From IMG/VR virus record IMGVR_UViG_3300045135_002200, positions 1 to 37,793 of that record: a DNA stretch of 37,793 nt, one strand, 5' to 3'. Below are positions 807 through 34,001 of this stretch, one piece after another. The stretch comes from a virus. Under the pieces are notes generated by a model that did no database searches, had not been told where the DNA came from, and saw only the letters and a program-made list of their open reading frames with translations. A program made the position numbers and the translations under genes. Each line of letters starts with the position of its first letter. Within the stretch, counting starts at the first letter, position 1.

Positions 807-1034
807 TTATTCGACAACCCCATGTTCACGGAGTATTTGTTCAATGCCTGACGGTGACAGATCAACACCTAGCTCTTTTGCGTATGCTTCAAGCCCGCGC
901 TTGGCAAACTCAACGGTTGCGACAGCGCGACATTCGCCCAACTCGGCAGAGAGCGCGAGTATTGCGTCATGCGTGCGTTCATCCATGCGCACAGAGTACG
1001 CACACGTTTTAGCTTCTCTCTGGATTAGCTTCAT
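807..1034 (-). CDS. Small putative ribbon-helix-helix-like regulator, 75 aa
   Basis: The ATG at 1034 has a strong GAGGAG site upstream, which decides this start over longer upstream frames. The first 16 residues end in a possible beta strand (AYSVRM). Two predicted helices follow (ERTHDAILALSAELG and AVATVEFAKRGLEAYAKEL), an order seen in CopG/Arc-type DNA-binding proteins. It occupies the position of a CII-type or second early regulator, right after the Cro-like gene. The Cro-like reading frame, if read through its amber codon, ends inside this gene at 1009. Function is inferred only from fold pattern and position. Confidence 0.65.
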   Translation of the reverse strand: MKLIQREAKTCAYSVRMDERTHDAILALSAELGECRAVATVEFAKRGLEAYAKELGVDLSPSGIEQILREHGVVE

Positions 1035-1209
1035 GGTTATTCTCCTCAAAATAACGAACCAACTTGAACCACGTTTCATAGCGCGGATTGAGCGTGCTGC
1101 CCTCCGAAATCTTCTAGATCGTACCAACGGGCACGCCAGAGGCTTTCGAGATTGCGACATAACTCTCAGTGCGATTCTTCAAATGATCGCAAACTTCATC
1201 CAACAACAT
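1009..1209 (-). pseudogene. Cro-like HTH gene interrupted by an in-frame amber codon
   Basis: ATG 1209 follows a GAGAGG ribosome site and opens a frame of 31 codons, then TAG at 1116-1114, then 34 more codons to TAA at 1009. Read across the stop, the product resembles small Cro-type proteins of phages: a helical start, then SYVAISKASGVPVGTI, the amber codon, KISEGSTLNPRYETWFKLVR and a short tail. The stop falls within the presumed recognition helix region, where relatives usually carry an aromatic or basic residue. The gene is divergent from the repressor and directly behind the leftward promoter, as expected for Cro. TAG is an ordinary stop elsewhere in this genome, so recoding is unlikely. 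A point mutation, sequencing error or suppressor dependence are the options. Confidence 0.75.
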
Positions 1210-1237
1210 ACATCTGCCTCTCAGTGTGTGATTTTAG

Positions 1238-1267
1238 AGCATAGCCCATAAATGGGCTTTTATTCAA
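1238..1267 (-). promoter_or_regulatory. Leftward early promoter overlapping an operator
   Basis: On the minus strand TTGAAT (1267-1262) and TATGCT (1243-1238) form a sigma-70-like pair with an 18-bp spacer. The palindrome AGCCCAT-N2-ATGGGCT sits in the spacer and overlaps the first base of the -10 element. A start near 1231 would give a short leader with the Cro-like ribosome site. This geometry is typical of a repressor-controlled lytic promoter. Confidence 0.65.
1243..1258. promoter_or_regulatory. Operator-like palindrome, repressor/Cro intergenic region
   Basis: AGCCCATAAATGGGCT has perfect 7-bp arms around a 2-bp centre. The core CCC-N6-GGG with an AT-rich centre recurs three times upstream of the rightward operon. 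It lies between the divergent Cro-like and repressor genes and is followed by TTTTATT on the plus strand, so a weak terminator is an alternative reading. Confidence 0.65.
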
Positions 1268-1294
1268 CAGATGCGGGCCGGAAGAGGCGTTAAT

Positions 1295-1675
1295 ATGCAG
1301 GCACACTTAAATATGCTTGAAACGACAATGGATAATCGAAAGATCTTATCTGCAAATTTGGTGCGCCTGATGAACGGCAACCCAAACTGCAATACACAGT
1401 TAAAACTGGCTCAAAGAGCCGGACTAGGTAAAGGTACGATAGGGCGCATACTGCACGAAGAAGTCAGCGTGACAGGTGATACGTTGAGCGCGCTCGCCCA
1501 AGCGCTCGGTGTCGAGGCTTACGAACTATTGATTGACCACTCAAAACCGCAAACCGCAGCGCCCGTCACAGCAGACGATACGTTTGATGCGATTGTGGCG
1601 ATTATGCAGAACTGGGAGGACGAGGACTTTGAGGCTTTTCAGGGGATGATTCGTGCGTACAAGAAGATGCGCTAA
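1295..1675 (+). CDS. XRE-family phage repressor (CI-like), 126 aa
   Basis: The start at ATG 1295 is chosen because GAAGAGG lies about 7 bases upstream. Other in-frame ATGs at 1271 and 1328 lack such a site. Residues about 20-75 form a helix-turn-helix of the XRE/Cro-CI type: LAQRAGLGKGTIGRILHEE with the TLSALAQALGVEAYELL helix after it. The C-terminal part is short and acidic and lacks an S24 peptidase (Ser-Lys) domain, so RecA-stimulated self-cleavage is not expected. It is divergent from the Cro-like gene across one operator, the standard arrangement for a lysogeny repressor. Likely targets are the CCC-N6-GGG sites at 1243-1258 and 2038-2115, which is inference. Confidence 0.85.
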   Translation: MQAHLNMLETTMDNRKILSANLVRLMNGNPNCNTQLKLAQRAGLGKGTIGRILHEEVSVTGDTLSALAQALGVEAYELLIDHSKPQTAAPVTADDTFDAIVAIMQNWEDEDFEAFQGMIRAYKKMR

Positions 1676-9568: not shown

Positions 9569-9789
9569 TGGTGGCACTCACCGTTGTTGTTCTGATGATG
9601 CTCATTGCGGGCATCATTAAGACAGGCAATCTCGTGCTCGTTTTCCCTATCCTGTTCTTTATCTATCTACTCATGGACCATGAAAAGAAAGGCAAGCCCG
9701 ATAACAGTATAGATGCGCTATTCGGACTGCTCTTCTTTCTTGGTCTGGCGGGTGTACTACTGCGTATGCTAGAAAGCCTCTTCCGTTAG
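9568..9789 (+). CDS. Small membrane protein, 73 aa (holin-like size)
   Basis: GTG 9568 overlaps the previous stop as TAGTG, and GTG 9571 is also possible. Hydrophobic segments are residues 2-18, 22-36 and 50-68 (DALFGLLFFLGLAGVLLRML), with a charged loop between the second and third. Size and topology would suit a holin, but no endolysin gene is visible nearby, so this stays open. Its 3' end overlaps the end of the convergent giant gene by 21 bases. Confidence 0.6.
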   Translation: MVALTVVVLMMLIAGIIKTGNLVLVFPILFFIYLLMDHEKKGKPDNSIDALFGLLFFLGLAGVLLRMLESLFR

Positions 9790-12700
9790 TTTTGAAATAC
9801 GCTTGCTTAACTCATTCTTCTTCTTACGCAACCGCTCGATCTGACTGCGCTTCATCGAAGCAGAGTAGCGCGTACTCTTGGTGATACGGTCAATTTCCTT
9901 ATTAAGCTGACCAAGCTGCTGACGCGCACGCCCTAGCGCACCGCGATATTTCAGCTTGCCACCGCTCTCTGTTCTAAGCTCGCTTGCTCGCGCATAATCC
10001 CCGTCTTTCTGGTAGGCGCGAATCGTGCGGTAAATCTCGTCTACTTCTTTCGTGCGCTCATATAGATCAGTGGCGTACTGCGTTGTCTTAGCGTTCTTCG
10101 TGCCGCGATACAGCGCCTTAAAGACAGGTAGCTCGTCAATCGTCCAGTCTGGCTTAACAGGCTTGCCCGTTGCCCAGTCTACCGCCAAGTCTGCACCGCC
10201 AAGCGCATAAATACCCAGTGTGCCAGTGTAGCCTTTCCAAAGATGCTCAAGCTCTTTAGGCGATAAACCAAGCCATGCCGCAGTATCACGCAGCGCGACA
10301 GCCGTTGAACTGGTGCGCGAGTTAAAGCGGGCCGATTTCAATTTACCCTCGTCTGACATACCCTCGATAGGCGTGCCAAAGAAGAATGACTTATTCGCAA
10401 TCACTTCTGCAACAGGCATTACGGCCTGCGGAATCGGGTTAACATTCAGGGTGTGCATGATGTTGTGCGCGAGTGACCACGTTAATTTACTGCTTGGCTG
10501 ATTACCAAGAGCGACATGCGCCATACGTTCCGGCATCGTGCCAAAAATAATACCAATCTCAAACGGCTTAGGTATGCGGAAATGATGATCGCCCATAAAG
10601 ATATGCCAGTTTGCGTCTTTATCCCAATCTGGTAACTGCTCGTATCTTTCTTCGTCATCATTGAGAAACGCAAGTGCCACACTCCACATTGCAATCTTCG
10701 CGCCTGCGGCTGCAACTGCACGCCAATCATCCCTAGAGGCTCGGCCCAGTTTATTGAGGCCCTGTAGTCGCGCATTAAGGAAAGGCACAAAGTCCGTAAA
10801 GAATGTCAGTGCTGCAAAGTTTCCGCGCAATGAGTAGTCCATCAAGTCTTTTGATTCATAGACCGCCTGCGCCAATGGTTTGCCTGCGGCTAATGCTTTC
10901 TTGAACGTGCCTAGTCGGTTCGCGTTCTCCACTTTATCGCCCCATCCTCGGTAGGTCTGCCAACCATTTGATAGTGCGCCTTTCATCTTCTCTTTGGTGT
11001 TTAGCTGCGAGTTCTCGTAATCGTCTAGCGTCTTGCCTTTCAAACCTTTCGCTTCTAGCGCCCTGCGCACAATATCCGCTGACGCATTAGGGTCTGTGCC
11101 ATGCACATAGCCACCCTGAAAAGACGCGCCCGCAAACATGAGCGTTCTATAATCTTCATCCTCTTTCCATGCGTGCTTCATGCCCTCCCACGAATCAACA
11201 CCAAACTTAAACTGGTCTGGGTTGATCGCCCAAGCATGTACCGCATCCCTGATAAAGTTACGCACGATAAAGTCAGGCGAGGCCGTGACACCCGTTGTTA
11301 AGAGTCGCTTAAAGTAACGCGCTCCGCGCATCATTGTACTGTTAGAGCTTTGCGAATCCATGCTCGTAAACGCCCGCAACAAGGACGGTTCATGCACTCG
11401 GTAATACTCATTCTTCCCGTTACGGCTGACGCGAATCACATCAGGGTCAGTCGGTGCGGTAATCGCCCACATCATTTCATAAGACTGGCTATCTAACTTC
11501 GCCACTTCGTCTATGATCTGCTCTTCTGCGGTATCGCGCTCAAAGCCCAATACCTCGGCCACCTGCCGCCTAAACTCTCTATCCGCTTTGATACGCTTGT
11601 TCAGATCAGACTTAGGAATCGCGGCTTGCGTATAGCGCATAGTCTCATTCTGTAGATCGTCCGTATCTTTCAGATTATCTACCGCTTTGAGTAGCGCGCT
11701 ATTTTTCATGGCGCTGTCTGTGAGCTTAATCCAGTTCGTGAGTATGTTGCTCAATAGATCATTGGTTGGTAGCGTGCCACCAATTAACTGTCGAACACCC
11801 GCGCTCTGGTGTGATAACCCTCGCTTGGTTCGCGGTCCTAGCAACGAACCACCATCTACGTCTGCTTGACGATAAAACGGTATGTAATATTCTGACTCCC
11901 ATTCTGCGCGTGATGCAGCGTCAATTAGCCCTGCTTCTTCGCTCAAGTCGAGCATGGCTTGGTTGATCGCCTTATATGCCTCGTGCGCCTGCTTAAATGC
12001 CGCCTCTTTACCTTTCGCCTTATCAAGCCCTGTCTGTATATTCTCTTCGGTCAGGTTGTTTTCGCGCCCCTGCTCCATTAGCTCTTGCGCACGTTTACTG
12101 CCCATCCATGCAAGCCAGTCGTTCAGGTCAGGCCCAAGCTCTGCGAATATCTCCATCAAGCCCTGCGTACCCTCTTTGTACTGAATAATCCCGTCTTTCC
12201 ATTTCGGTGCGCCATATTTCAAGATGCCGCTCATTACATCGGCAACACCTGTTGCGAGTCGTGCGCCCACATAGCCAGACTTCGCCATGTCCGTCACGCC
12301 TGCGCGATCTTCGGCACGCTTCAATCCCACCATGCCATCAAAGAAGCCCTCATAGCCTCGCTGATACACTGACCATTCAGGGTTAAACAGGTTATCGACT
12401 ATCTCACGGATAATGTCGTATATCTTTTGCATTAGCGTCTTGGCTTCGGGAGCGGATAAACCCATCTTCTCCATTAGCTCTTGATCTTCTAGTACGCGCT
12501 CACGCGAGAACATCACGGAGTTGGGGTTTTTCTGGTACTTCGGATTTTTAACAAGCACCGTTGGCCCGACTTGGATTAGTTCATCACCAGATACTACTTG
12601 CTCCATTGTGTCTGCATTGTAGTAATAGCTTCTGCGCTCTGGGTCAAAGCCCACCTGAACCCAGTCTTTTGATTGCATGGCTTTCTGTGCGCGTGCGTAT

Positions 12701-15700
12701 AGCGATTGTATAGGCTCTTTATTCCACTCGCCTTTAATCTGCGCGAATGGTGATTTCGCTTCACCCATTGCCACCTTTAATGCCGCCTTGCCATAGCCCT
12801 CTTCTTTCAAGACAGGGTTGCGCACGCCCGCAATAGGTACATAGCCGACAGTGGCAGAACCTTTGTGTACCGTTGGAATCCAAACGCCATGATTTGTATA
12901 GGCCGGAATATCCAGTCTGACACCCACACGCTCGCCATCTTTAAGTGCGCTAGTCGCACCAATCTTCGGCACTTTGTTGGAGGCAAGCGCTTTACGCATA
13001 TCTGCAACAGACGCAATCTTAGGCAATTCATCCCGCGCAGCAGCAGGCTTGTTCGCGTCCTGTATGCGGTTAAATTCAGCCTTAGTAATCTCGCCCTTTT
13101 CAAAGCGCTTGGCCGCAGCTTGAATGGCAGGCACACGTTTAGCAGCCTCTTTGTGATTCATGCCGATACGTGAATTTTCACGATCACGCGAGAAGCGCAC
13201 ATCACTACCACCGCCACCAGAGGGAGGCGTTGTATCATTTTTAAGTGCTTTACGCGCACCGCTCAATACCGCAAACAGATCAGTTTCGCCCATCTTACTG
13301 AGCTTGATAAAGCCATGCTTGTTTAGCCATGCCCGCAACAGGCCGATCAATTCTTTGATCTTGCGCTTCACACTTGGGCGGCTCTTTTGCGCCATGTGCG
13401 CCAGTAGCTCGTCCATCAGCATGAGGTCGATATTTTCTACGTCATGCCCCTCAAGCGCAAAGCCCTCAATGTAATCGTTGATGACTTTCTCCGTGAAGCC
13501 GTACTGCTCACCAAACTTTATGACACCCTTGCGGCCACCAATCGCCATAAAAATCTCGCCCAATTTGGACTTAAACTTTTGACCAAAGAGCTTGCGTACA
13601 CCATAATGGCCTAGCGCTTCATGCAAGATACTTTCTTCAAGCAATCGCTCTGTCTTGTGCATATCACGAACGAGGTAAATCGTATCGACATCGTTATCGA
13701 ATACAGCATATACCTCGTCTGTGCCCTGATTGGCGGCTATGTCCTTTATCTTTTGCGGCAGTTGTTCAAACGTATCAACAAGCGTAATGACGCTGTTAGC
13801 GCCACCCCACTTCCCAGTAACACGCCTGATAACTTTATCTGCCTGCGCTGCGCTGATCGCACCATCGCTCTTCGGGGTCGCACCACGTTGACTATTGATA
13901 CGCCCCTTAGAGAATCGGACTGAATCTGAAAGGCGCGATACATCTGCGCCCAGTGTTTCCAGTAGTTGCTTATTCGGGCTTGGCGCGCCCTCTGGCAGAG
14001 AATCTACTTTCTCAATTTTGGCGTTGCCTGCTTCAATGTCCACATCTGTGCTGTAAGTATAAAGATGGACGTACTCGCCTGTAGACTGCTTGATTGCAGG
14101 TAAAGCCGCACCTCCGATAGAGTCAAATTCAACACCGAGCGTTTTAAACGTATCTCCCTCATGCGACACAGTAACAGGTTTAAGGTTTTCCATATTAAAC
14201 TGCGTTCTGCTGACGTTGCGCTTGGTGTCTGAGTCAATATACTTGTTCGGGGTTTCCCCTCTGCGTATCTGCTCCTGAATGTCTGTCAGCCTCTCTTCCA
14301 CCGATAACCAGTTATTCAGTTTGACAGCATCTTGCGCAGCGGCCTTTTCGCTTGAAATGTCGCCCTCCATTAGAATCTCGGCATTTTTTAACGAGTCGCG
14401 CATCGTGCGCACATTGCTTTCTGCCTGCGCTTTCGCAGTCGATAGTCTGGTTTTAGCTGTGGATAGATCAAGTAGATTAAGCAGGCGCATAGAGCCTGTC
14501 ACAGTCGAGATAGGTGACACATCAGAGTGGTGCAGATCATGTTTCCCATTATTGCCTGTCAATGTCACGGTTGCGCGATACGATGGCGAATCATCTTTAT
14601 CTGCCGCCATGCTTAGACGGTCAAAGGAAACAGACACGCCATACCCGTTCCCTATATCTACCGAGCCTGACCAGTTCTCACCATCTTTCACCGCTGCTGT
14701 TGCCGGATTGATAATGCGCTCTTTCACCATATCAGCATACGGATGATCTATCGTAAGCAAAGAGGGTGTTTTTGGTCTTTCTGGCTTCTTCTCTTTCTTC
14801 TTCTGATCTGGCTCTAGCCCGCTCCAACGGTCACTCGCCTCTCGAAACTCATCCATTGCCAATTCAAACGACTGCTGCTGCTCTTGCATTATGTCAGCGT
14901 ACTCGCCTAAATCGAAATCTGCGGCAGCAAAATTATCAACCAACGGGATAACAGCCTCATACCGCGCTATCTTATCAGGGTATGTTTCTAGCGTACTTTC
15001 TGCCCCTCGTTGGCTAGAGGCTTTCGCTAAGTAGGTGGTCATCTTATTGGCTTTATCTAAATCGCTTTGCAGCTTCAGCTTATAGATTGGATTACCTGTT
15101 GAGCTTGCCTTGAAATTCGCATAGCTGTCTGCGTCACTCGCGGAATCATCCACAAATTCATCAAGCCCACCAGAGCGGAATTGCTCAATCGCTTTCGCTT
15201 TGCGCTCCAATATCTGCCACATAACAGGGTCGCTTGAGCCTTGTGTCGCATACGCCACAATCTCGACTTCAAACCCGTCAGGGTCAGCCGCATACAGCAT
15301 ATTACCCTGTCGGATAATGCGCCCCTCGCGCTGTTCCATGTCGGACGGTCGCCACGGTGCATCCATGTGATGAAGCGCCACTAATCGCTTCTGTGCGTTT
15401 GTACCCGCGCCCATCTTTTGCGAACTACCAAGCAATACCCGTATCTCACCATTATTGACCAGATCAAACAATTCCTGCTTCGCATCTACCGTCTTATAGT
15501 CATGGATAAACGCGATTTCATTTTCAGGTATGCCCGACTCCATCATCATGGCTTTAAGGTCATCGTAGACACTAAAGCCTGTGTCGGCTGTCAGCACCGT
15601 ACTCTCAAGCTCGCGCATCATATCCTGCACTTTTTCGGCCTTATCGCCTGTCAGCCCCTCACTCTCCAGTACGCGATTTACTTTTTCAGCAATATCCCGA

Positions 15701-18700
15701 AATGTCATGCTATACGCATCCGTATCGTACAACTCCAATCTACTGCGCACATACGCTGTCGCTTCACGGCTTGGCATAACACCCTTAGCCAGTGCCACTA
15801 AATCGGCCCGCGCATTTTTCTCTGCGGTTTTAGCAGGCGTACCCATATCACTAAAGATAAGTTGCGTGCCTTTCACAGAATCATACTGGTCATAAATGCG
15901 CTTCACGTTTTTCGCTGCTCGCGCTACCTTACCTGTCGGGTCACGAGGCAGCGTTGGGTCTACTAGCCGTGAGTCGAGCGAGGCTTTCTTTGCATCACTC
16001 AATACCCATAAAGGATTGTCGATCTTAGAATATTCTCTGCGCTCTTCCCTGCCTGTAATCGCCTGTATGCCTTCCATGCGCGCAATCAGGTAATCGTTAT
16101 AGCGTTTTTGAGACTCGGTAGCCTCGGCCATATCAAGCTGACGCTCACCGCCTTTTATGTTCGGAATTGGGAATCGCGTACTCTTGCTTTCACCTGTTTT
16201 TTTGTTCTGCTGTTGTACGTCCTCTGCATAGATATTCACCATATCCTCACGAGTAATAACATCACCCACCTGACGATATAAAGCAGAAAGCGCTTTGACA
16301 TTATGAATGCCCTTTAAGACTCTGCGTTCTTTGATCGTGCCTGTTGGCGTATATTCTAGCGCTGTATCTGTACTTAAAAACGAGCCTGCAAACGCATCAA
16401 ATTGCGCAATATCCATTTCTTTCAACTGGTCATACTGGAGGTAATACATCATGGTATAAACCTCGACCAAGCTGTTACTGATAGGCGTACCCGTCATATA
16501 GGTGACACCGCCATTTTCAAGCGATTGAATGTCGCGCAGCTTCACCAGTAGATCGAGCGCACGATCAGAACCCGCAGGCGAGTTCATGCCCACCACCTGA
16601 TCGCTTGATGTAGAGTAGGTTAAGTTCTTAAATTCGTGCGCCTCATCGACCACAAGATAGTCAAAGCCTACGTCCTCAAACTCAAAACCTATATCATCCC
16701 CTGCACTCTCCAAGCTCTTTTTCTTGTCTTTCAGCTTGTCGTTCAGGCGCGTAATCGCCTGCTCAATCTGACTAACAGAAGAACCTCGGCTTCCACTCTC
16801 TTTCGCTTGATTTCTCGCCTCTTCTAACGCTTCTCGATACTCTGCAATCTTGGCGTTAATAACGCGCTCAAACGACTCATAAGAATTAGGCAGCGCTTTT
16901 AAGTGGGAGTGGCCCATGATGATTGCGTCATAGTCGCCCGTAGCCGCACGCGCAAAAAACTGCTTACGATTTTTGGCGCTCATCTGTTTTTCCGAGGCGA
17001 CTAGAATGTTTGCTCCTGCATACAATTCGTAAAAGTCAGCCGCAAAACTCCCGATAATATGATTTGGTACGGTAATCAGGGGCTTTTTACTTAACCCTAA
17101 TCGTCTGCGCTGCATCACTCCGCTAATCGCTGTAAAGGTCTTGCCTGCGCCTACCGTATGATCGAGCAATACAGACTTCGACATGACCATTCTGGCCGCG
17201 CCATCCAACTGCGTTTTACGCATTTCAATAACTGGATTTTGACCAACTGGCTTGAAGTACAAGCGCCCGTTGTATTTACGCTCTGCTTGCGTATTAACAC
17301 GATCATTAAAGTTTTGCGCCACCGTGATCTGGGTGGCTTCGTTGTTCTGCACAAAGGTTTCAAACGCAGAAGCAAGGTTGTTTATGAGTAGGTTGACTTG
17401 CTTTGTACCCTCTTCGTCCTTTCTACGATCAGAACTTGGCCCTTCGTAGATCACTAGAGACTTGCCATTTGCTGCTGCATTAAAGAGTTCGATAACACTC
17501 TTATGGTCATTCTTAAACTGCGCGCCTATCTCGGTGAGCGCGCCTATTGAATTACCCTCGGCCATGATCTTGCCGAGCTTGCGGTTAATGCTTACTTTGA
17601 TGGCTTTCCCGCCAAGCGCTTCAAGAAAATCCTTAAATACTTCGGCATCCACCCAAGGAGCGCGGATAGAGGCTTTTACTTTATCCACCGGAATATCCGC
17701 AGGAAGCACTCGCTCTAGGTGCTTAATGTTGGCATCTAGTCCCTGCTCTTGCGCCAGTTTGTACTTGGCTTTTACATTGCCTGACAAGTAATCGTCTACA
17801 AAGTCATAGTCGCCCGTTTCAGGGTTTAGGAATAGGTATGGCGAGTCGCCAGTCGTTAGCTTCTCTTTCGCCTCGCTGCGCGATATGCCCATTATTTTTG
17901 CGACATAGGACAGATCAATCTTGCCGTTTTCCTGCATGGAAAAGCTAACAGCATCATCAACCGTCTTAGCGGAGCTTGGTTTTTTGTAGGACTCAATGAC
18001 GCGCCCATCAAAGATAGCGTGTTTGCTGATCTTGCCGCTCGCTTTGTTAAACGAATCCAAGCCCGATTCAATACCCAAGTCGCCACGCAACAAACCGAGG
18101 TTGTCATCAATGGAGGCCGTTTTGGTTTTCGTGCTGTGCTCCAAGACAAACGCATCGTACTGCTGATTGAGCTTTTTACGCAGCGCGTTCATTTCTTTGA
18201 GGTCTTGCTTTTCTGCGCGTATCAGAGACAGTGCAGTATTGCGCATGTTTAGAATAGATTTTAGCTTTCGATACTTGGCATCCCCTAAACGCGATGTAGC
18301 GCTATCCAAAAATTTGCGCACTTCAAGCTGCATGGCTGCTTTGCTCTTGCGCCCCTGCACATAATCCTCAACCGCTTTAAACGCCTTATTATTGGCTTTT
18401 AGTTTGCCTCGCGTATTGAGTAGCTTTTCTTTGTAGGTTTTCTCAATCACAAAATCATTTTGCGAAGTCAGGCCATCTAGTAGCCGCGCATTATCTGACC
18501 ATGCTGTTTTACTGGTGACTTCAACCACGTTCGCACCAGAGCCGCTATCCTCTTCGCGTAGTAAGATTTTGCCTTTGTCGTTGAGCATCATGCCGCCTAC
18601 AGGCAAGTCACTCTCTGATAGCAGCACCTCACCGCTTAGGCTGTCTTGCTCTTCCGCTGTCAGTGTCAGGTCCACACCGTCAGCCATCTTTTTCATAGCC

Positions 18701-21700
18701 TTAGCAATCGCGGCTTGCAAGTCGCTATGCTCGTCTGTCGGATGGACCGTCAACTCCCCGCCTGTACGCTCACCGTACATCGTGCCATCCATTGCTGCGC
18801 GACCAAGCACCATGTCGGGATTGTCGATGAAATATTGATTCATCTTCACGCCATTGGCTTCACCGCTATTGTTCGTCCAGACAAGATTCTTAGACTGCTC
18901 ACCCTTTTTCAACTTACGGAACACCACAATATCAGTCGTGACTTCTGTTCCGGCATTTGACTTAAAGGCTGTATTAGGTAGGCGCACAGCCCCGACAAAC
19001 TCCATAGTCTTGCTGAGTTGCGCGTGATTTTGGTTCTTGGTGTCCAGAAAGTTCTTGGTGATGACCATCATCATCAAGCCGTTGTCGTGCAGCAGTTTGG
19101 CGCTCTTAGCAACCATGTAGTTATGCAGACTTAGCCCTGATATGTCTTTGTGCTTGTCGTCATAGATCGGGTTTGCGCCAAAAGGCGGGTTGCCGATAGC
19201 AAGGCTAAAGACGTTCTCTTTAAAGCCTGCATCTTGAAATCCTTTAACCTGAATGGTGGCATCATCATAGATCAGGCTTGAGATAGTGCCTGTAATGGTA
19301 TCAATCTCACTGGCGAACCAGTCAGAGTTCTCGCGCATATCTGCGGGCTGCCAACCTATAAAGTTACCAGAGCCGACCGATGGCTCAACAATCCGCATCT
19401 TAGAATCATTCAAGCCAAACGCTTCAACACCTGCCCACATACCTTTTACCACATCCTTAGAAGTGTAAAACGCAGTCGTGATCGAGGCGCGAATGTTGTT
19501 GTATTCGGTTTCAGTAACGAGAGACTTTAATTCGTTGTTCGCATCTTGCGCGTATTTGCGCGTAGTTCTGGAATCGAACACTTCACGCAAGCCACCCCAT
19601 CCCACATAGCGGGCAAGGGTTTCTTTCTCTTGCAGAGTTGCTTTGCGCTTTTCTCTGACAAGCTGTTTGGCTAATCGTATTGCTGACAGGTTCGCTTCAA
19701 CACGCTCTTTTGGCGTGCCATTGGCTACCCCCTCAACATCATCAAGATTTAGGCTTGATGTTTCAGTATCACTCGCACCGCTTCGCTTTGTGCTTGAGTT
19801 GCGTCCACCCCGACTCCCACCAGAGCTTCCGCTTCTGCTGCCGCCATTTTTCCGAGTGCCACTATTTCCCGTTCCCGCATTGTCTTGCTCATTTCCTGAT
19901 ACTTCGGATTGTTCATCAGTGCTTGTGCTATCTGTTCCTGCATCGTCACTTTCATCGTAGTTATCCCCTACAATTTCATTTTCGTTATTGGTGTCTGGCG
20001 TATCATTCACCACTTCCTCTTCTAATGAAAGAGAATCTAACACATCATCAATATTGGCCGCTTCTACTTCTGCCGCCCCGCTCAGGCCCTCAAACTCTTG
20101 CGTTCTTGGGTCATACTTTGCAGCCATATACCACGATTTAAGGTATGGCTTAACCATATCACCTAAATCATTCACCATCGCCTTAGAGTAGGCGGCAAAG
20201 GTTCTCGCGCCCTTTTCTATATGATAGCCTGCTAGGGTTATGCCTGCCTGCACTAGCTCAGGGTCAAGACCGCTATTCATTTGGCCTAGCTTGGCTTTCA
20301 GTAAAGCGCGCGCCTTTTCTGCTGCATCCTCGGTGAACACAGTATTTTTTGATACGCTTGGTTTTTCTGGCTTTTGAGGCTTCTCAGGTTTAGCCGCAGT
20401 CGGTGTCTCTTCGGCCTGCTCTTCGGCTTTCGCCTCTTCCAGTAGCGCATCCCAATCGGCCATCATAGCCGCCACTTCGTCATCAGAGGGTATGTCGCTT
20501 AACTCTTGCTCGTCCAATGCTGCCATTTCAGCATCCATTTCAGCATCAAAGTCATCGTCCGATAATGCACCCTCTACTTCCGGCTCTACTTCTTGTACAG
20601 ATTCCTGTTCAACTGGCTCTATCTTTTCTGTTCCGGCAATCTGCGCATCCGTCCACTCAGACATAGGCGGCAAGTAGTTGATTGGTGTCTTAGCGTTGTA
20701 ATCATCGGCCAGTGCTTCATCAATTTTTGGCAATATCTTTTCTAACACGGACGCTTCTTTGCTTGTCCATGCCATGTGCGCCAAGTCTCGCGTAGGTATT
20801 TTATCGTGAAAGATGATGTTGTGATGTGCCAACTGCGCATACAGCGCTACCGCTTTCCATGCGTCCTCACGCCACCCATCAAAGGCGATAGGCGCTAAAT
20901 CAATACCCTCAAACTGCGGGGTGATGCGCGCCTCTGTGCTGCCATGCGCCTCTCTAAACTCATCAAACTTCTGCTGCGACTCAAAGACAAAGCCACCATG
21001 CGCGCCACCGCCATCTTTGCCTAGCCCTTTTAGCGTGCTCGCTACATTACCCGTTGATTGCGCGCCCCACTGTTGCGCTAAGGCTTTCATTTCCGGCAAG
21101 GCGTACACTTTGCGCGGCACATAGCCACCGCCAAGCTGTACTGATAGCGTGCTAACATCGTAGTCTGTAGTAGACATAACAAAGCGCAATCGCGTCTTGG
21201 ACGCTTGCATTAACGCTTCGCCCTCTAAAGGCGGGTCTACGTCTGCTTTGTTATCTGATTCTTGCGACTTGTTAGGCGCTAACGGCTTGAGAATTGAACC
21301 GTTCGGTTTCTTAATGTCTTTAAAATCTTCATCAAAGAGATAGCTTTCTGCGCTGTCCTTATCTGCCGGAGTGAGCGTTTTTCGTCCCACCATTTCACGG
21401 AATTGACGGGCGTTAAAGTTATCACCGACACGCTCCGCTTCTGCAAGCGCGTTTTCAGCTAACCATTGGTCAACGCGAGATAGCGTGTTGGCTGTTTTAA
21501 TGCGCGTAGAGGTATCGACTTTCGGGAATGGCGTTGTGCTTGCGCCAGAGGTTGTTAAAAGCACTGTGCCTTGCGCGTAGAGTTGATCTTGCTGATACGG
21601 TTGCGGCTTGCTTTCGCTCGACTTGTCCTTGTCGCCCTTGCGCCACTTCATGTAGTCCGCATCACTCACCTCAATATCTCGGTCAGCATCAAAGACTTGT

Positions 21701-24606
21701 TGGCGGGCTTTGCGTAGCTCTTTCTCCAGAGAAGCGCGCTCTGGCGTACCCTCTTTGGCGCGCTTCATAGCACGCTTAATGCGCGTTACTTCCCGCTCAC
21801 CAATCGTCTTGCCTGTCGGCTTATCCTCGTCTGGCTTGGTATCGGGTTTCGTTTCTGCGGTTGGCGGGTCCGTTAAATCTAGTTGGTTCGGGTTAGCATC
21901 TGCCGGACGATTAGAGCCTATTAACGAAAAGCTATTCGTCTGCTCGTCAATCTTGGCTTTGGCTTCGTCCTGCTTCTTCTTGCGCTTCGCTTCTGCAATT
22001 TGCGCTTCACGTTCAGCAAGTTCCTGCTCCGTGTAAGATGTTAAGAGTCCTGTTCCAGTTCCTTGATTCTGTTCTTCAACTCGCTCGCCTTGTACGTTTT
22101 GAGCTTGAGCTTGCCCTCCTGACGTAGCGCTAGTAGTCGCTCCGCTTCCGCTCGCAGTTGCTTCACTCGTTTCTGAAAGATTGCTTTCTTCATACTGATT
22201 ACCTTGTTCTCGTCTGTCATCGTACTTTCCTGAACGAATAAGCGCATATATGCTTGAGGCTAGAGCTTCCGCGCTGTCTGCCTGCATTTCTAACTCGTCT
22301 AGGGCTTCTTTGGGTACACCTGCATGACGAGCCGTTTGAATGGCCTCAACTGCTAGTTGCTCAGAGTGGCTTAGTTCTAGGTCTGCGTCAAACTCGCTTT
22401 GGTCGATTTCATCCATGTCATAGTCAAAATTAGGCGCATCTTGCGCTGCATCCCATGACGGGGAATCTTGCTGTGCTGCCGTTAGGCGCTCTAGTAACTG
22501 ACGCTGCTTACGCTGCTCGCGCTTCTGCTCGCGCAACTCGCGTGTGTACGCCAAGTTCTCGTCACTGTTATGCCCTGCATCTATTTCATCCATCAGCATG
22601 GAGATAATGCGCGCTTGTCGTGAACCTAACGCCTCGCCCTTTAACGCCTTATCAACCGCACGTTTTACATCGTCCGTTGACGCGCCTGTAGCCGCCAACA
22701 AATCTTGCCCCCACTGAGGATTAGAAGAAGATGTGCGCCCAGTAATTACGCCATGCTCATTTCTGACATACGCAATACCGCCACCCTTAACCAACTCTTT
22801 CACCATGACGGGCAGTACGTCTTGATAGCTGCGCTTACCCTCACGCAAAAAGCGCTCGTCCGTTAAGCCTTGCGGCAAGCGCTCTTGGCGCTTCTGCTTG
22901 GTCTGTAGGCGGTCATAGTCATCTTTATACTTATCAATGATCGCTTCGCCACCGCGCACCTTGTCTACGCTATTGCTGACAACCTCGCGTATCTCGTCTG
23001 GGTCAGAGTCCATGCGAGGCGTAATAGGGAAAAGCGCCTGCTCGTCCATGCCATTATTGAGATTGCCTTGCGGAGTGACTGTGCCCTCTAGCTTGTCTTG
23101 TGGTGGTGGTAGTTGTTTTTGCTGTTCTGTCAGGGTTGGAATCTGGCTTTCTGTAACTGCGCCCGTACCACCTTGATCTATATTCTGCTGTACTTGTTTC
23201 TGCCGCTCTTCACGGCTTAGACCGCTACCAGACAGCAAGCCCTTGTTGCCGATTGGTGCAAATTCGTCACGCACCTTAGCTTGTCGTTGTTCGCGTGCTT
23301 CCGTACCGCTAAGAATATCCTCTTCGCGCATATTAAAAGGCGTGTTATCAAGCGGCTTGCCTTGCGCATCCAACTCGCCCTGCACCGCGCCTTGTCGCTG
23401 ACCTCTTAAAAAGCCTGCTTGATCTGGTGTAAGTTCGTCACGCTCTGCGACAGGGTTAAGCTGTGCTGTAATTGCATCGAGTCGTCTTTTGCGCTGCAAT
23501 GCTGCTGATACCGCTTCATCACTGTTCGGGTCAAAGCCCTCAAGCACACTATCGGTTAATGGGTCAGCCGTATTGACGACCTCTTCACTTCCCGCTACCG
23601 CCTGATCGAGCGCATCACCACCCTTGTTTGCTGCATCTTCGCGTGCCTTTTTCACACGCTCACCGCGATTGCTTACGCCCTCAATCGCGCCAAACATCGC
23701 GCCACCAACTGAACCCGCACCAAACGCATCAAAATATTGGCGCTGCTGCTCGCTTGAAAAGAGCGTTCGGTTATCGTCAATCCATTTCTTTGCGTGTTCT
23801 TCGATAAGTTCCTGCGAGGCTTCCGTGATGCCCTCAAGCGCCATTTGCTTGCTCATCGACTTAACGATGCCATCTTTAGCGACATCCATTAGCTCTTCGC
23901 TAACACCCATTTTCCGCAAGAATCGTAACGGAACAATCGAGTCAAGCACACCCATCGCTGCGCCATGCGTAAAGGCCGTTTGCCACTTACTGCCCTCGCC
24001 CTCAACGTCTTGTAGCTCGCCCATGACAGAGCCTTGATTTAACGGGATATTGGTTAAATTCTCGCCAACCAGTGCGCCCGCGCTTTTTGCCATCATTAGC
24101 TTTTTCGTGGCTGCTTTTTGCGCAACTTCTAACGCAACGCCTTTTTCTACTTCTTCTTTGACGTACTTCTCTAATCCTTTTTCGACCAGTTTGCGCCCTG
24201 CAACTGCACCAAATCCACCGCCCGCAATCGAAGTAACAGCAGTTGGGATAACTTGCCCTGCTGTAAACGCCAACCAGTCTCCGAAATCTTCCGCACTACC
24301 TACATCACTAAGTCTTGCAAAGCCCGCATTTTCCTCGGCTTCGGCCATGTTCTCGTTATAGGTATCTAAGCCCCAACGCTTGACCGAATCTGCGCCAAAC
24401 GCATCACCTAGCATAGCGACAAAACCACCGCCCATCGCCTGCGTGGAATCAATGCTAGACAGCAAGCCTTTCGTAAACTGGCTACGCTCCCCGCTGCCAC
24501 CCTCTCCCACTATTGGCTCTGGTGCATAGCTGCGAAAGCCCCGCCCTCCGCTCTGCTCGTTCAGGCCCATTTCTTCGTCAAACTCGGTCCAGTCGTAATT
24601 AGACAT
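9769..24606 (-). CDS. Giant polyvalent virion protein: methylase, SNF2 helicase, zincin, LPD38-like, 4945 aa
   Basis: It belongs to the DarB-like polyvalent proteins, carried in the virion and thought to enter the host with the DNA and protect or remodel it. Visible parts in order: hydrophobic segments near 111-137; long disordered, charged linkers up to about 1620; a gamma-type N6-adenine methyltransferase (about 1640-1900) with EPSVGSGNF near 1740 and NPPF near 1805; an SNF2/DEAH helicase (about 2470-3150) with GAGKT near 2485, DEAH near 2653 and QREGRIIRQG near 3091; a zinc metallopeptidase motif HEALGH near 3662; a conserved segment near 3950-4030 (RRSYYYN...ELIQVG); an LPD38-type region near 4430-4750 (SPDFIVRNFIRDAVHAW, then FVPFLNARLQGLNKLGR); and a basic coiled-coil end. 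All catalytic motifs look intact. It is the last gene of the leftward virion operon. P1 DarB, for comparison, is about half this length. Two other reading frames are nested within its linkers. Confidence 0.93.
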   Translation of the reverse strand: MSNYDWTEFDEEMGLNEQSGGRGFRSYAPEPIVGEGGSGERSQFTKGLLSSIDSTQAMGGGFVAMLGDAFGADSVKRWGLDTYNENMAEAEENAGFARLSDVGSAEDFGDWLAFTAGQVIPTAVTSIAGGGFGAVAGRKLVEKGLEKYVKEEVEKGVALEVAQKAATKKLMMAKSAGALVGENLTNIPLNQGSVMGELQDVEGEGSKWQTAFTHGAAMGVLDSIVPLRFLRKMGVSEELMDVAKDGIVKSMSKQMALEGITEASQELIEEHAKKWIDDNRTLFSSEQQRQYFDAFGAGSVGGAMFGAIEGVSNRGERVKKAREDAANKGGDALDQAVAGSEEVVNTADPLTDSVLEGFDPNSDEAVSAALQRKRRLDAITAQLNPVAERDELTPDQAGFLRGQRQGAVQGELDAQGKPLDNTPFNMREEDILSGTEAREQRQAKVRDEFAPIGNKGLLSGSGLSREERQKQVQQNIDQGGTGAVTESQIPTLTEQQKQLPPPQDKLEGTVTPQGNLNNGMDEQALFPITPRMDSDPDEIREVVSNSVDKVRGGEAIIDKYKDDYDRLQTKQKRQERLPQGLTDERFLREGKRSYQDVLPVMVKELVKGGGIAYVRNEHGVITGRTSSSNPQWGQDLLAATGASTDDVKRAVDKALKGEALGSRQARIISMLMDEIDAGHNSDENLAYTRELREQKREQRKQRQLLERLTAAQQDSPSWDAAQDAPNFDYDMDEIDQSEFDADLELSHSEQLAVEAIQTARHAGVPKEALDELEMQADSAEALASSIYALIRSGKYDDRREQGNQYEESNLSETSEATASGSGATTSATSGGQAQAQNVQGERVEEQNQGTGTGLLTSYTEQELAEREAQIAEAKRKKKQDEAKAKIDEQTNSFSLIGSNRPADANPNQLDLTDPPTAETKPDTKPDEDKPTGKTIGEREVTRIKRAMKRAKEGTPERASLEKELRKARQQVFDADRDIEVSDADYMKWRKGDKDKSSESKPQPYQQDQLYAQGTVLLTTSGASTTPFPKVDTSTRIKTANTLSRVDQWLAENALAEAERVGDNFNARQFREMVGRKTLTPADKDSAESYLFDEDFKDIKKPNGSILKPLAPNKSQESDNKADVDPPLEGEALMQASKTRLRFVMSTTDYDVSTLSVQLGGGYVPRKVYALPEMKALAQQWGAQSTGNVASTLKGLGKDGGGAHGGFVFESQQKFDEFREAHGSTEARITPQFEGIDLAPIAFDGWREDAWKAVALYAQLAHHNIIFHDKIPTRDLAHMAWTSKEASVLEKILPKIDEALADDYNAKTPINYLPPMSEWTDAQIAGTEKIEPVEQESVQEVEPEVEGALSDDDFDAEMDAEMAALDEQELSDIPSDDEVAAMMADWDALLEEAKAEEQAEETPTAAKPEKPQKPEKPSVSKNTVFTEDAAEKARALLKAKLGQMNSGLDPELVQAGITLAGYHIEKGARTFAAYSKAMVNDLGDMVKPYLKSWYMAAKYDPRTQEFEGLSGAAEVEAANIDDVLDSLSLEEEVVNDTPDTNNENEIVGDNYDESDDAGTDSTSTDEQSEVSGNEQDNAGTGNSGTRKNGGSRSGSSGGSRGGRNSSTKRSGASDTETSSLNLDDVEGVANGTPKERVEANLSAIRLAKQLVREKRKATLQEKETLARYVGWGGLREVFDSRTTRKYAQDANNELKSLVTETEYNNIRASITTAFYTSKDVVKGMWAGVEAFGLNDSKMRIVEPSVGSGNFIGWQPADMRENSDWFASEIDTITGTISSLIYDDATIQVKGFQDAGFKENVFSLAIGNPPFGANPIYDDKHKDISGLSLHNYMVAKSAKLLHDNGLMMMVITKNFLDTKNQNHAQLSKTMEFVGAVRLPNTAFKSNAGTEVTTDIVVFRKLKKGEQSKNLVWTNNSGEANGVKMNQYFIDNPDMVLGRAAMDGTMYGERTGGELTVHPTDEHSDLQAAIAKAMKKMADGVDLTLTAEEQDSLSGEVLLSESDLPVGGMMLNDKGKILLREEDSGSGANVVEVTSKTAWSDNARLLDGLTSQNDFVIEKTYKEKLLNTRGKLKANNKAFKAVEDYVQGRKSKAAMQLEVRKFLDSATSRLGDAKYRKLKSILNMRNTALSLIRAEKQDLKEMNALRKKLNQQYDAFVLEHSTKTKTASIDDNLGLLRGDLGIESGLDSFNKASGKISKHAIFDGRVIESYKKPSSAKTVDDAVSFSMQENGKIDLSYVAKIMGISRSEAKEKLTTGDSPYLFLNPETGDYDFVDDYLSGNVKAKYKLAQEQGLDANIKHLERVLPADIPVDKVKASIRAPWVDAEVFKDFLEALGGKAIKVSINRKLGKIMAEGNSIGALTEIGAQFKNDHKSVIELFNAAANGKSLVIYEGPSSDRRKDEEGTKQVNLLINNLASAFETFVQNNEATQITVAQNFNDRVNTQAERKYNGRLYFKPVGQNPVIEMRKTQLDGAARMVMSKSVLLDHTVGAGKTFTAISGVMQRRRLGLSKKPLITVPNHIIGSFAADFYELYAGANILVASEKQMSAKNRKQFFARAATGDYDAIIMGHSHLKALPNSYESFERVINAKIAEYREALEEARNQAKESGSRGSSVSQIEQAITRLNDKLKDKKKSLESAGDDIGFEFEDVGFDYLVVDEAHEFKNLTYSTSSDQVVGMNSPAGSDRALDLLVKLRDIQSLENGGVTYMTGTPISNSLVEVYTMMYYLQYDQLKEMDIAQFDAFAGSFLSTDTALEYTPTGTIKERRVLKGIHNVKALSALYRQVGDVITREDMVNIYAEDVQQQNKKTGESKSTRFPIPNIKGGERQLDMAEATESQKRYNDYLIARMEGIQAITGREERREYSKIDNPLWVLSDAKKASLDSRLVDPTLPRDPTGKVARAAKNVKRIYDQYDSVKGTQLIFSDMGTPAKTAEKNARADLVALAKGVMPSREATAYVRSRLELYDTDAYSMTFRDIAEKVNRVLESEGLTGDKAEKVQDMMRELESTVLTADTGFSVYDDLKAMMMESGIPENEIAFIHDYKTVDAKQELFDLVNNGEIRVLLGSSQKMGAGTNAQKRLVALHHMDAPWRPSDMEQREGRIIRQGNMLYAADPDGFEVEIVAYATQGSSDPVMWQILERKAKAIEQFRSGGLDEFVDDSASDADSYANFKASSTGNPIYKLKLQSDLDKANKMTTYLAKASSQRGAESTLETYPDKIARYEAVIPLVDNFAAADFDLGEYADIMQEQQQSFELAMDEFREASDRWSGLEPDQKKKEKKPERPKTPSLLTIDHPYADMVKERIINPATAAVKDGENWSGSVDIGNGYGVSVSFDRLSMAADKDDSPSYRATVTLTGNNGKHDLHHSDVSPISTVTGSMRLLNLLDLSTAKTRLSTAKAQAESNVRTMRDSLKNAEILMEGDISSEKAAAQDAVKLNNWLSVEERLTDIQEQIRRGETPNKYIDSDTKRNVSRTQFNMENLKPVTVSHEGDTFKTLGVEFDSIGGAALPAIKQSTGEYVHLYTYSTDVDIEAGNAKIEKVDSLPEGAPSPNKQLLETLGADVSRLSDSVRFSKGRINSQRGATPKSDGAISAAQADKVIRRVTGKWGGANSVITLVDTFEQLPQKIKDIAANQGTDEVYAVFDNDVDTIYLVRDMHKTERLLEESILHEALGHYGVRKLFGQKFKSKLGEIFMAIGGRKGVIKFGEQYGFTEKVINDYIEGFALEGHDVENIDLMLMDELLAHMAQKSRPSVKRKIKELIGLLRAWLNKHGFIKLSKMGETDLFAVLSGARKALKNDTTPPSGGGGSDVRFSRDRENSRIGMNHKEAAKRVPAIQAAAKRFEKGEITKAEFNRIQDANKPAAARDELPKIASVADMRKALASNKVPKIGATSALKDGERVGVRLDIPAYTNHGVWIPTVHKGSATVGYVPIAGVRNPVLKEEGYGKAALKVAMGEAKSPFAQIKGEWNKEPIQSLYARAQKAMQSKDWVQVGFDPERRSYYYNADTMEQVVSGDELIQVGPTVLVKNPKYQKNPNSVMFSRERVLEDQELMEKMGLSAPEAKTLMQKIYDIIREIVDNLFNPEWSVYQRGYEGFFDGMVGLKRAEDRAGVTDMAKSGYVGARLATGVADVMSGILKYGAPKWKDGIIQYKEGTQGLMEIFAELGPDLNDWLAWMGSKRAQELMEQGRENNLTEENIQTGLDKAKGKEAAFKQAHEAYKAINQAMLDLSEEAGLIDAASRAEWESEYYIPFYRQADVDGGSLLGPRTKRGLSHQSAGVRQLIGGTLPTNDLLSNILTNWIKLTDSAMKNSALLKAVDNLKDTDDLQNETMRYTQAAIPKSDLNKRIKADREFRRQVAEVLGFERDTAEEQIIDEVAKLDSQSYEMMWAITAPTDPDVIRVSRNGKNEYYRVHEPSLLRAFTSMDSQSSNSTMMRGARYFKRLLTTGVTASPDFIVRNFIRDAVHAWAINPDQFKFGVDSWEGMKHAWKEDEDYRTLMFAGASFQGGYVHGTDPNASADIVRRALEAKGLKGKTLDDYENSQLNTKEKMKGALSNGWQTYRGWGDKVENANRLGTFKKALAAGKPLAQAVYESKDLMDYSLRGNFAALTFFTDFVPFLNARLQGLNKLGRASRDDWRAVAAAGAKIAMWSVALAFLNDDEERYEQLPDWDKDANWHIFMGDHHFRIPKPFEIGIIFGTMPERMAHVALGNQPSSKLTWSLAHNIMHTLNVNPIPQAVMPVAEVIANKSFFFGTPIEGMSDEGKLKSARFNSRTSSTAVALRDTAAWLGLSPKELEHLWKGYTGTLGIYALGGADLAVDWATGKPVKPDWTIDELPVFKALYRGTKNAKTTQYATDLYERTKEVDEIYRTIRAYQKDGDYARASELRTESGGKLKYRGALGRARQQLGQLNKEIDRITKSTRYSASMKRSQIERLRKKKNELSKRISKLTEEAF
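19749..19955 (-). CDS. Nested ORF in giant-gene linker, 68 aa helical protein
   Basis: This frame lies wholly inside the giant gene, same strand, +1 relative to it. ATG 19955 is preceded by AGGGGA eight bases upstream. The product (MKVTMQEQIAQALMNNPKYQ, then SKTMREREIVALGKMAAAEA and QAQSEAVRVILKHQA) looks like an ordinary folded helical protein. Over the same bases the giant protein is a Ser/Gly/Asn/Asp-rich linker (residues about 1551-1619). That contrast is what overprinting predicts, with the nested frame constrained and the host frame free. Function is unknown. The alternative is a chance open frame within low-complexity DNA. Confidence 0.55.
   Translation of the reverse strand: MKVTMQEQIAQALMNNPKYQEMSKTMREREIVALGKMAAAEAEALVGVGVDATQAQSEAVRVILKHQA
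22041..22220 (-). CDS. Nested ORF in giant-gene linker, 59 aa basic coiled-coil protein
   Basis: Also within the giant gene and in the same +1 frame. The start ATG 22220 is set by AGGAAAG just upstream (AGGA, seven bases, ATG). A longer frame from 22247 has no such site. The product (MTDENKVISMKKAIFQKRVK, then QLRAEAERLLALRQEGKLKL and KASELKNRIKELEQDS) is Lys/Glu/Leu-rich and heptad-like, as in small DNA- or protein-binding phage proteins. The giant frame here is a Ser/Thr/Gly/Gln linker (residues about 796-855). Existence is supported by composition and ribosome site, not by homology. Confidence 0.55.
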   Translation of the reverse strand: MTDENKVISMKKAIFQKRVKQLRAEAERLLALRQEGKLKLKTYKASELKNRIKELEQDS

Positions 24607-27435: not shown

Positions 27436-28203
27436 CTAAACCTCCGTAAACTCTGCCCAGTCTTGCGACCATTGCGGCATTTGCTCAAATATCGTCTGCA
27501 AAGCCGCTCGATCTGCGTTTCGTATCTCTAACGTGCTCGCAATCAACTTCTCTTTGGTGGCCGCATCTACGCCCTGCATTGTCTGGATTTTCTCGATAGC
27601 AATTACGGTATCTTGGCGCATCTTGTCCCACGAACGAACATACTCCCCTTTCAGGTTGGCCGAGGCTTCCGCGCTCATTTGCTCCATCCTGCCGGACTGC
27701 TCTAGGCGGGTTAAAAACTCTTTCGCCTCAATGTCTCGGTCTGTCTGCCATTTACTTAGTTCTTGGCTTGAGTTGAACTCTTGCGCACGATTATCGGCCT
27801 GCTGATTCGCCATGCTCGCAGCATTGTCAGCCGTTGCATTAAACTGCTGTGCTTGGTTGTTTGACTGCTGATTGGTCATAGATTGCGAATGGTGGGTTTT
27901 CGCGTCTTGTTGCGCGATAGGCATTGCAGCGTCAATCGCTGCACCATGCGCTGCACCGACAGCAAAAGAAGAATTGAGAAGCCCGCGCTGATTCGCCATC
28001 TGCAAGCCTTTCGTTTCGGCCCGCTTCATGTAATCCCCGCCCTTATCCAAAAGCGAAGTCATTTGCCCTTGCACTGTGGCTTTGTCGCCCACTTCGCGCT
28101 GATCTGCTTGGTAGCTAGTCGCCTGCGTTTGCGTAGGTGTTACCGCTGTCTGCGGTTGGTCTAGGTTGGTATTGGTCTGTTTCGTACTGTTGATTAACGC
28201 CAT
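27436..28203 (-). CDS. Virion structural protein candidate, 255 aa
   Basis: A Thr/Gln-rich N-terminus (residues 1-50) is followed by a segment (QMANQRGLLNSSFAVGAAHG AAID) of a kind found in internal virion proteins of several podoviruses. The middle is Asn/Gln-rich and helical and the C-terminal third contains a charged helical region (WDKMRQDTVIAIEKIQTMQG). No enzyme motif is seen. It starts the group of internal proteins that leads to the giant protein and is probably one of the core proteins. Confidence 0.7.
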   Translation of the reverse strand: MALINSTKQTNTNLDQPQTAVTPTQTQATSYQADQREVGDKATVQGQMTSLLDKGGDYMKRAETKGLQMANQRGLLNSSFAVGAAHGAAIDAAMPIAQQDAKTHHSQSMTNQQSNNQAQQFNATADNAASMANQQADNRAQEFNSSQELSKWQTDRDIEAKEFLTRLEQSGRMEQMSAEASANLKGEYVRSWDKMRQDTVIAIEKIQTMQGVDAATKEKLIASTLEIRNADRAALQTIFEQMPQWSQDWAEFTEV

Positions 28204-32999: not shown

Positions 33000-34001
33000 C
33001 TACGCCTGCTCTGTGACACCTACCTCAACACGCATCATCCAACTTTCGTTTAGAATCACCGCCTCAAAGTATGTTTTCCAACCGACATAACCACGCTGAC
33101 CGAGTGGGTCGTCTTTGGTTGGTGTAGATGGGTTTAGTACAGATGGCGTAATCGCCCCCGCACCTTTCAACGGCACAACGCCATACGCTTCTTTTGCCAC
33201 ATAAATGACTGAGTAAACGTCAACATTCGTTTCGTCTACCGCCACCATGCCGTTTAGAGAAGCCGCGCCTGCGCCTAGCATTGGCTCAAGCACTGGCGAA
33301 AGAATGTAACGCACATCCTCGACCTTACCGATTTCGTAAGGTAGCGCTTTCATCTGACCGTACTTCTCGCAAGGCGTGAAGTTCGGCATATCACGAATGT
33401 CACTCTCCAAGTCCGTGTGTGCAAACGCAATGAACGCTGCATCGACTGGCTCAGTTGAGTAGTTCGGAGAAGAGCCCACCATAGAGGTGATTTTCTTCGC
33501 ACGATTCGCTTTAAGCGTTCGCGTCACAGCACGTTGCTTGCCAAGCGATAGCGCAGAGTTGACGCCTGCGCGAGTCGTACCATTGGCGTAAGATACGTTT
33601 GTGCCGCCCTGCAAAATGCCCCAAGTCAACACTTCCACCGTTTCTGCGGCTTGCTCGCCACACATGACGTTAGAGTCTTTCAACACTGGGTCTTCTGACA
33701 AATCATCGACTACATCAGAGATTTCAACCACATCACCGTATTGCTTGATGGTGACAGTGACTTTCTCATACGCCATTTTGCGTGCAGCAGGCGTTTCACC
33801 CTCTGTCAAAGGCGTGGTTGCAACAGGGAACGGAATAGGACGAATCCAAGAAACCGTATCTGCTTTGTTTTTTGGTAGTGGTTTAGACTGACCAAACTTG
33901 TTTAGAACCAAAATTGGTTCAGCGTGCGACAATTGATCGGCTGCCGCATACGCAGCAGTACGCTGCGAAATATCACCGTAGGAAGTACCTGTGTAAGCCA
34001 T
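33000..34001 (-). CDS. Major capsid protein, N4-gp56 family, 333 aa
   Basis: The sequence fits the N4-gp56 family of HK97-fold capsids: MAYTGTSYGDISQRTAAYAA at the start, TVSWIRPIPFPVATTPLTEG, VTVTIKQYGDVVEISDVVDD, LESDIRDMPNFTPCEKYGQM, and a C-terminal GYVGWKTYFEAVILNESWMM. It follows the scaffold gene. It is a complete gene of typical length with no sign of an N-terminal prohead propeptide. Confidence 0.93.
   Translation of the reverse strand: MAYTGTSYGDISQRTAAYAAADQLSHAEPILVLNKFGQSKPLPKNKADTVSWIRPIPFPVATTPLTEGETPAARKMAYEKVTVTIKQYGDVVEISDVVDDLSEDPVLKDSNVMCGEQAAETVEVLTWGILQGGTNVSYANGTTRAGVNSALSLGKQRAVTRTLKANRAKKITSMVGSSPNYSTEPVDAAFIAFAHTDLESDIRDMPNFTPCEKYGQMKALPYEIGKVEDVRYILSPVLEPMLGAGAASLNGMVAVDETNVDVYSVIYVAKEAYGVVPLKGAGAITPSVLNPSTPTKDDPLGQRGYVGWKTYFEAVILNESWMMRVEVGVTEQA

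Follow-up and report, generated by a model that had tools for sequence, protein, structure and literature searches.

The minus-strand frame at positions 1209 to 1009 of the window probably represents cro in an immunity switch of the lambda type, carrying a single nonsense change at codon 32, and this change appears to be recent on the scale of protein divergence. The window, meaning the whole stretch of DNA analysed, is the complete record of a viral contig of 37,793 bases. It represents a fragment of the phage genome since genes are cut at both ends, a replication gene at the left and the large terminase gene at the right. The reading of the frame as cro with a nonsense change is supported by homology on both sides of the stop, by a divergent CI-like partner, by palindromes that resemble operators and by TAG being a normal stop codon in the window. 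The gene is of a known kind, and the stop in it is unremarkable, either a nonsense allele or an error. The features of the region are as follows.

807 to 1034, minus strand: next gene of the operon, 75 amino acids, its start overlapping the 3' end of the Cro-type frame, with its own ribosome site (1047 to 1041)
1009 to 1209, minus strand: Cro-type gene of 66 codons plus a terminal TAA (1011 to 1009), broken at codon 32; from translation, family match and profile
1114 to 1116, minus strand: premature TAG codon in the recognition helix; from translation, homology and structure model
1217 to 1222, minus strand: ribosome site GAGAGG, 7 nt ahead of the ATG at 1209 to 1207; from sequence
1238 to 1267, minus strand: weak promoter-like site, TTGAAT (1267 to 1262), 18 nt, TATGCT (1243 to 1238), with 8 of 12 consensus bases
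1243 to 1258, no strand: operator-like perfect palindrome with 7-base arms, AGCCCATAAATGGGCT; from sequence
1271 to 1675, plus strand: CI-like repressor gene, intact and divergent from the Cro-type gene; from homology
2038 to 2116, no strand: three more operator-like sites (2038 to 2053, 2070 to 2085 and 2101 to 2116) related to that at 1243 to 1258

Translation of the minus strand from 1209 to 1009 gives one internal stop, the TAG at 1116 to 1114 (codon 32). The family phrog_9425 (PHROG 9425, transcriptional repressor) matches residues 3 to 57 straight through this stop with an E value of 2e-8. The first-pass annotation, where a complete Cro-type frame broken only by this TAG had been described, is correct in its coordinates and its gene call. 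Among named proteins, the Cro of Pseudomonas phage PAJU2 comes nearest, with 45% identity across 53 residues (E=6e-5), and a protein from a Lachnospira eligens plasmid is just as close. A profile was built from 11 homologues with the window left out, and the stop was masked as X when the whole frame was scored. The 11 homologues had been found with the Cro-type frame, so that the profile is partly dependent on the frame; the phrog_9425 match is independent of it. Against this profile the 31 residues before the stop score 23.5 bits and the 34 residues after it 22.8 bits, while the maxima among 2000 shuffles of each half are 6.4 and 7.2 bits, respectively. Because the two halves score alike with a profile built without the window, their sequences identify them as parts of one helix-turn-helix protein in which the half after the stop is no more decayed than the half before it. 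The whole frame, at 57.4 bits, ranks first when all six frames of the window are examined for segments that span a stop (1926 in total), and the runner-up (17.7 bits) spans the terminal stop of the same gene.

The locus shares with phrog_9425 its helix-turn-helix sequence, which each half matches alone, as well as its setting, as a small gene opposite a CI-type repressor and first in a replication operon. What it lacks is an uninterrupted frame with a full helix-turn-helix, due to the TAG at codon 32, and in this record it is a broken member of the family with no working Cro. None of the homologues found ends naturally at residue 31. An alignment of 6 homologues was too divergent for scanning, and neither sequence searches against solved structures nor a structure search from a single-sequence model returned anything informative.

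Residue 32 falls in the third helix of the domain, which by homology is the recognition helix, and a single-sequence structure model, of low confidence, has a helix at residues 28 to 36. The placement of the stop within the recognition region by the first-pass annotation is sound, but an aromatic or basic residue at this position in relatives, as stated there, does not survive comparison with the 11 homologues, whose residues in this column are variable (Q, A, D, A, M, R, H, Y, N, N and R). The predicted product is a stub of 31 residues without the end of the recognition helix. By inspection of the sequence, the stretch beyond the stop offers a single in-frame start-type codon, a TTG located 18 codons on. 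Restart of translation past the stop was rejected, as this TTG comes too late for the DNA-binding domain.

The immunity region has the layout of a lambda-type switch. The CI-like repressor gene is intact, although a peptidase domain was not matched in its product, and in PAJU2, 8P, USP_25 and CF418P1 a CI homologue likewise adjoins a Cro-type homologue on the opposite strand. The Cro-type frames of these four phages are open at the position of the stop. Located 3' of the gene for the 75-residue protein are a gene for a 70-residue protein and then a putative replication gene, assigned by its place and repeats. Positions 1 to 165 hold tandem TTGTATCGTTTG repeats that code for a TNDT-rich stretch of the truncated left-end gene, and these could be origin iterons within a replication gene. 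On the CI side there is a gene for a single-strand annealing protein and, farther off, an integrase-like gene whose matches are weak. Family searches gave nothing significant for the 75-residue protein. A weak single-sequence model gives it a possible ribbon-helix-helix pattern, and it might be a second early regulator.

Control elements for the Cro-type gene had been described in the first-pass annotation as a promoter, an operator and a ribosome site. The ribosome site GAGAGG and the perfect palindrome are both present as described, but the promoter is only a weak one by its agreement with the consensus, and the promoter scan did not list the TTGAAT-18-TATGCT site. The palindrome at 1243 to 1258 sits inside this promoter-like site. 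The three related sites at 2038 to 2116 have centres 31 to 32 bp apart and lie ahead of a plus-strand early operon that starts at 2137. The four palindromes are likely to be the operators at which CI and Cro would bind. Together, the group of three and the single site resemble the two-operator layout of lambda.

Based on the position of the stop, translation of cro would end inside the recognition helix to leave an inactive stub. Loss of Cro would be expected to leave CI synthesis without its shut-off and early transcription undamped, and by analogy with lambda the phage would grow poorly in the lytic mode for as long as CI works. When cro is repressed in lambda, plating drops by 4 to 5 logs, with the caveat of polarity that the knockdowns also hit downstream genes (PMC10695390). 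The gene for the 75-residue protein should still be expressed because it has its own ribosome site, and polarity would be mild at most. A genome of this kind could be maintained as a prophage, or else as a minority variant. Several points weigh against the interpretation as a cro gene with a nonsense change. A consensus error is possible. The change has no placement on a tree, as a near relative with the gene was not found in the searched records, and the impairment of the phage by loss of Cro is carried over from lambda only. In addition, the 75-residue protein might act as a second regulator and soften the loss.

The search for close relatives covered several sets, from which records very near the window may be missing. 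No close relative of the Cro-type gene was found by DNA in phage records, none in viral contigs either by protein or by the exact DNA around the stop, and none in species genomes. No Cro-type match occurred in 31 related contigs picked by their capsid or portal gene, and no Cro-type relative in 275 genomes of one family, an empty result of little weight. A gene of the capsid region (33000 to 34001) shares about 71% identity with genes of Halomonas sp. McH1-25 and Litchfieldella xinjiangensis, and this similarity to prophages of Halomonadaceae hints at the host group.

Stop codons are used in an ordinary way in the window. The 34 listed genes end in TAG (13), TAA (11) or TGA (10), neither the many in-frame TAG codons nor the avoidance of TAG as a stop that mark phages with a reassigned TAG are seen, and ARAGORN found no tRNA gene in the window, and hence no suppressor tRNA gene, although the contig is a fragment. 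No Rfam element was found in the window. The TAG at 1116 to 1114 is the only internal stop within the 15.4 kb of coding sequence that has homology to related loci; this count was filtered, since antisense frames overwhelm the unfiltered one. One open frame on the minus strand (9769 to 24606), 4945 codons long and beside the structural genes, takes up 39% of the contig. Three late genes, at 27436, 28207 and 29253, end in TAG, and in each case the ATG of the following gene comes 3 nt later and in frame. Relatives were compared for the one at 27436, where they keep two separate genes, and since the first of these ends in TAA, TAG or TGA the junction reads as a true and ordinary gene boundary.

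Since the codons beyond the stop have kept their protein-coding character, the lesion is either recent or an error of the consensus. The first-pass annotation had noticed that these codons remain protein-like and had called the change a fresh mutation if not an error, and the nearly equal scores of the two halves agree with it on both counts, with the proviso that a consensus error is equally expected to leave the codons undecayed. It is possible, though the case for it is tentative, that the phage has an intact cro and that the stop was introduced by sequencing, assembly or the merging of variants. The lesion is a single one of the substitution type in one viral contig, for which one error suffices, and otherwise the gene shows no decay and the contig is clean. 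In contrast, the 4945-codon open frame and the freedom of the 15.4 kb from other internal stops point to a low error rate. Alternatively, the gene may have been lost longer ago and be a pseudogene on its way out, with its role passed to another regulator such as the 75-residue protein encoded at 807 to 1034. The possible ribbon-helix-helix pattern from the weak single-sequence model of that protein would fit such a role, but the protein lacks a significant family match, the Cro-type frame bears no second lesion, and its two halves on either side of the stop score equally well, so that an older loss is considered unlikely.

The remaining alternatives would have the codon read through. Decoding of TAG as an amino acid by the phage or by its host, which would make the gene whole, is scarcely credible. 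The frame past the stop is conserved, and phages with a reassigned TAG are known (e.g., PMC10607447), but 13 of the 34 genes end in TAG, which refutes the genome-wide version, no tRNA gene lies in the window, there is only one internal stop in the homology-covered coding sequence, and relatives use any of the three stop codons at the boundary at 27436. Reassignment of the stop codon was rejected on the TAG ends, the lack of a tRNA gene and the single internal stop in 15.4 kb. According to the first-pass annotation, a phage lacking Cro might lean toward lysogeny or need a suppressor host. The lack of a tRNA gene in the window and the place of TAG as the commonest stop also speak against a strong amber suppressor in the host. 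The amber codon could instead be kept on purpose, with low read-through or a weak host suppressor yielding a little full-length Cro, as the codons after the stop fit the family as well as those before it. The same match is predicted by a recent mutation or an error, however, no relatives with the stop were found in the searched records, and no read-through element was recognised by Rfam, which need not hold one. A maintained amber is accordingly highly improbable, and there is very little to commend the extension of it in which the amber acts as a tap on Cro, a trickle of read-through protein in the natural host setting the balance of lysis and lysogeny.

The case mainly serves as a caution that one stop in one assembled viral contig needs the support of reads before it is taken as biology. 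Should the nonsense change in cro be genuine, the lytic side of a lysis-lysogeny switch carries a natural nonsense allele here, which by analogy predicts a phage that would be poor at lytic growth and would survive as a prophage. The immunity region with its four candidate operator sites also provides a workable outline of the switch in an uncultured temperate phage.

Among known systems, PAJU2 ORF060, a putative repressor Cro (AP009624), is the named protein with the 45% identity given above, and it resembles the Cro-type gene further in lying opposite cI and in being followed by two small genes and replication genes. PAJU2 differs from the window in that its Cro is uninterrupted and its CI has 234 residues as compared with 134. 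The Cro/CI-type repressors of Pseudomonas phages 8P and vB_PaeM_USP_25 share the arrangement of a short Cro-type gene opposite a short CI homologue, but their Cro-type genes are uninterrupted, the next gene is NinG instead of a replication operon, and identity is low. In the switch of the Uetakevirus group (epsilon15, phiV10, BUCT554 and vB_EcoP_ZX5), a homologue of the CI-like repressor precedes recombination genes and has replication genes on its other side, and the ZX5 repressor has been shown to hold lysogeny (PMC9782041). Unlike the window, these phages have a small gene opposite the repressor that does not match the Cro-type frame. By layout, the one aspect compared, the region resembles cI-cro of lambda, where the repressor and Cro genes diverge, each of two early operons has operator sites, and replication genes lie behind cro.
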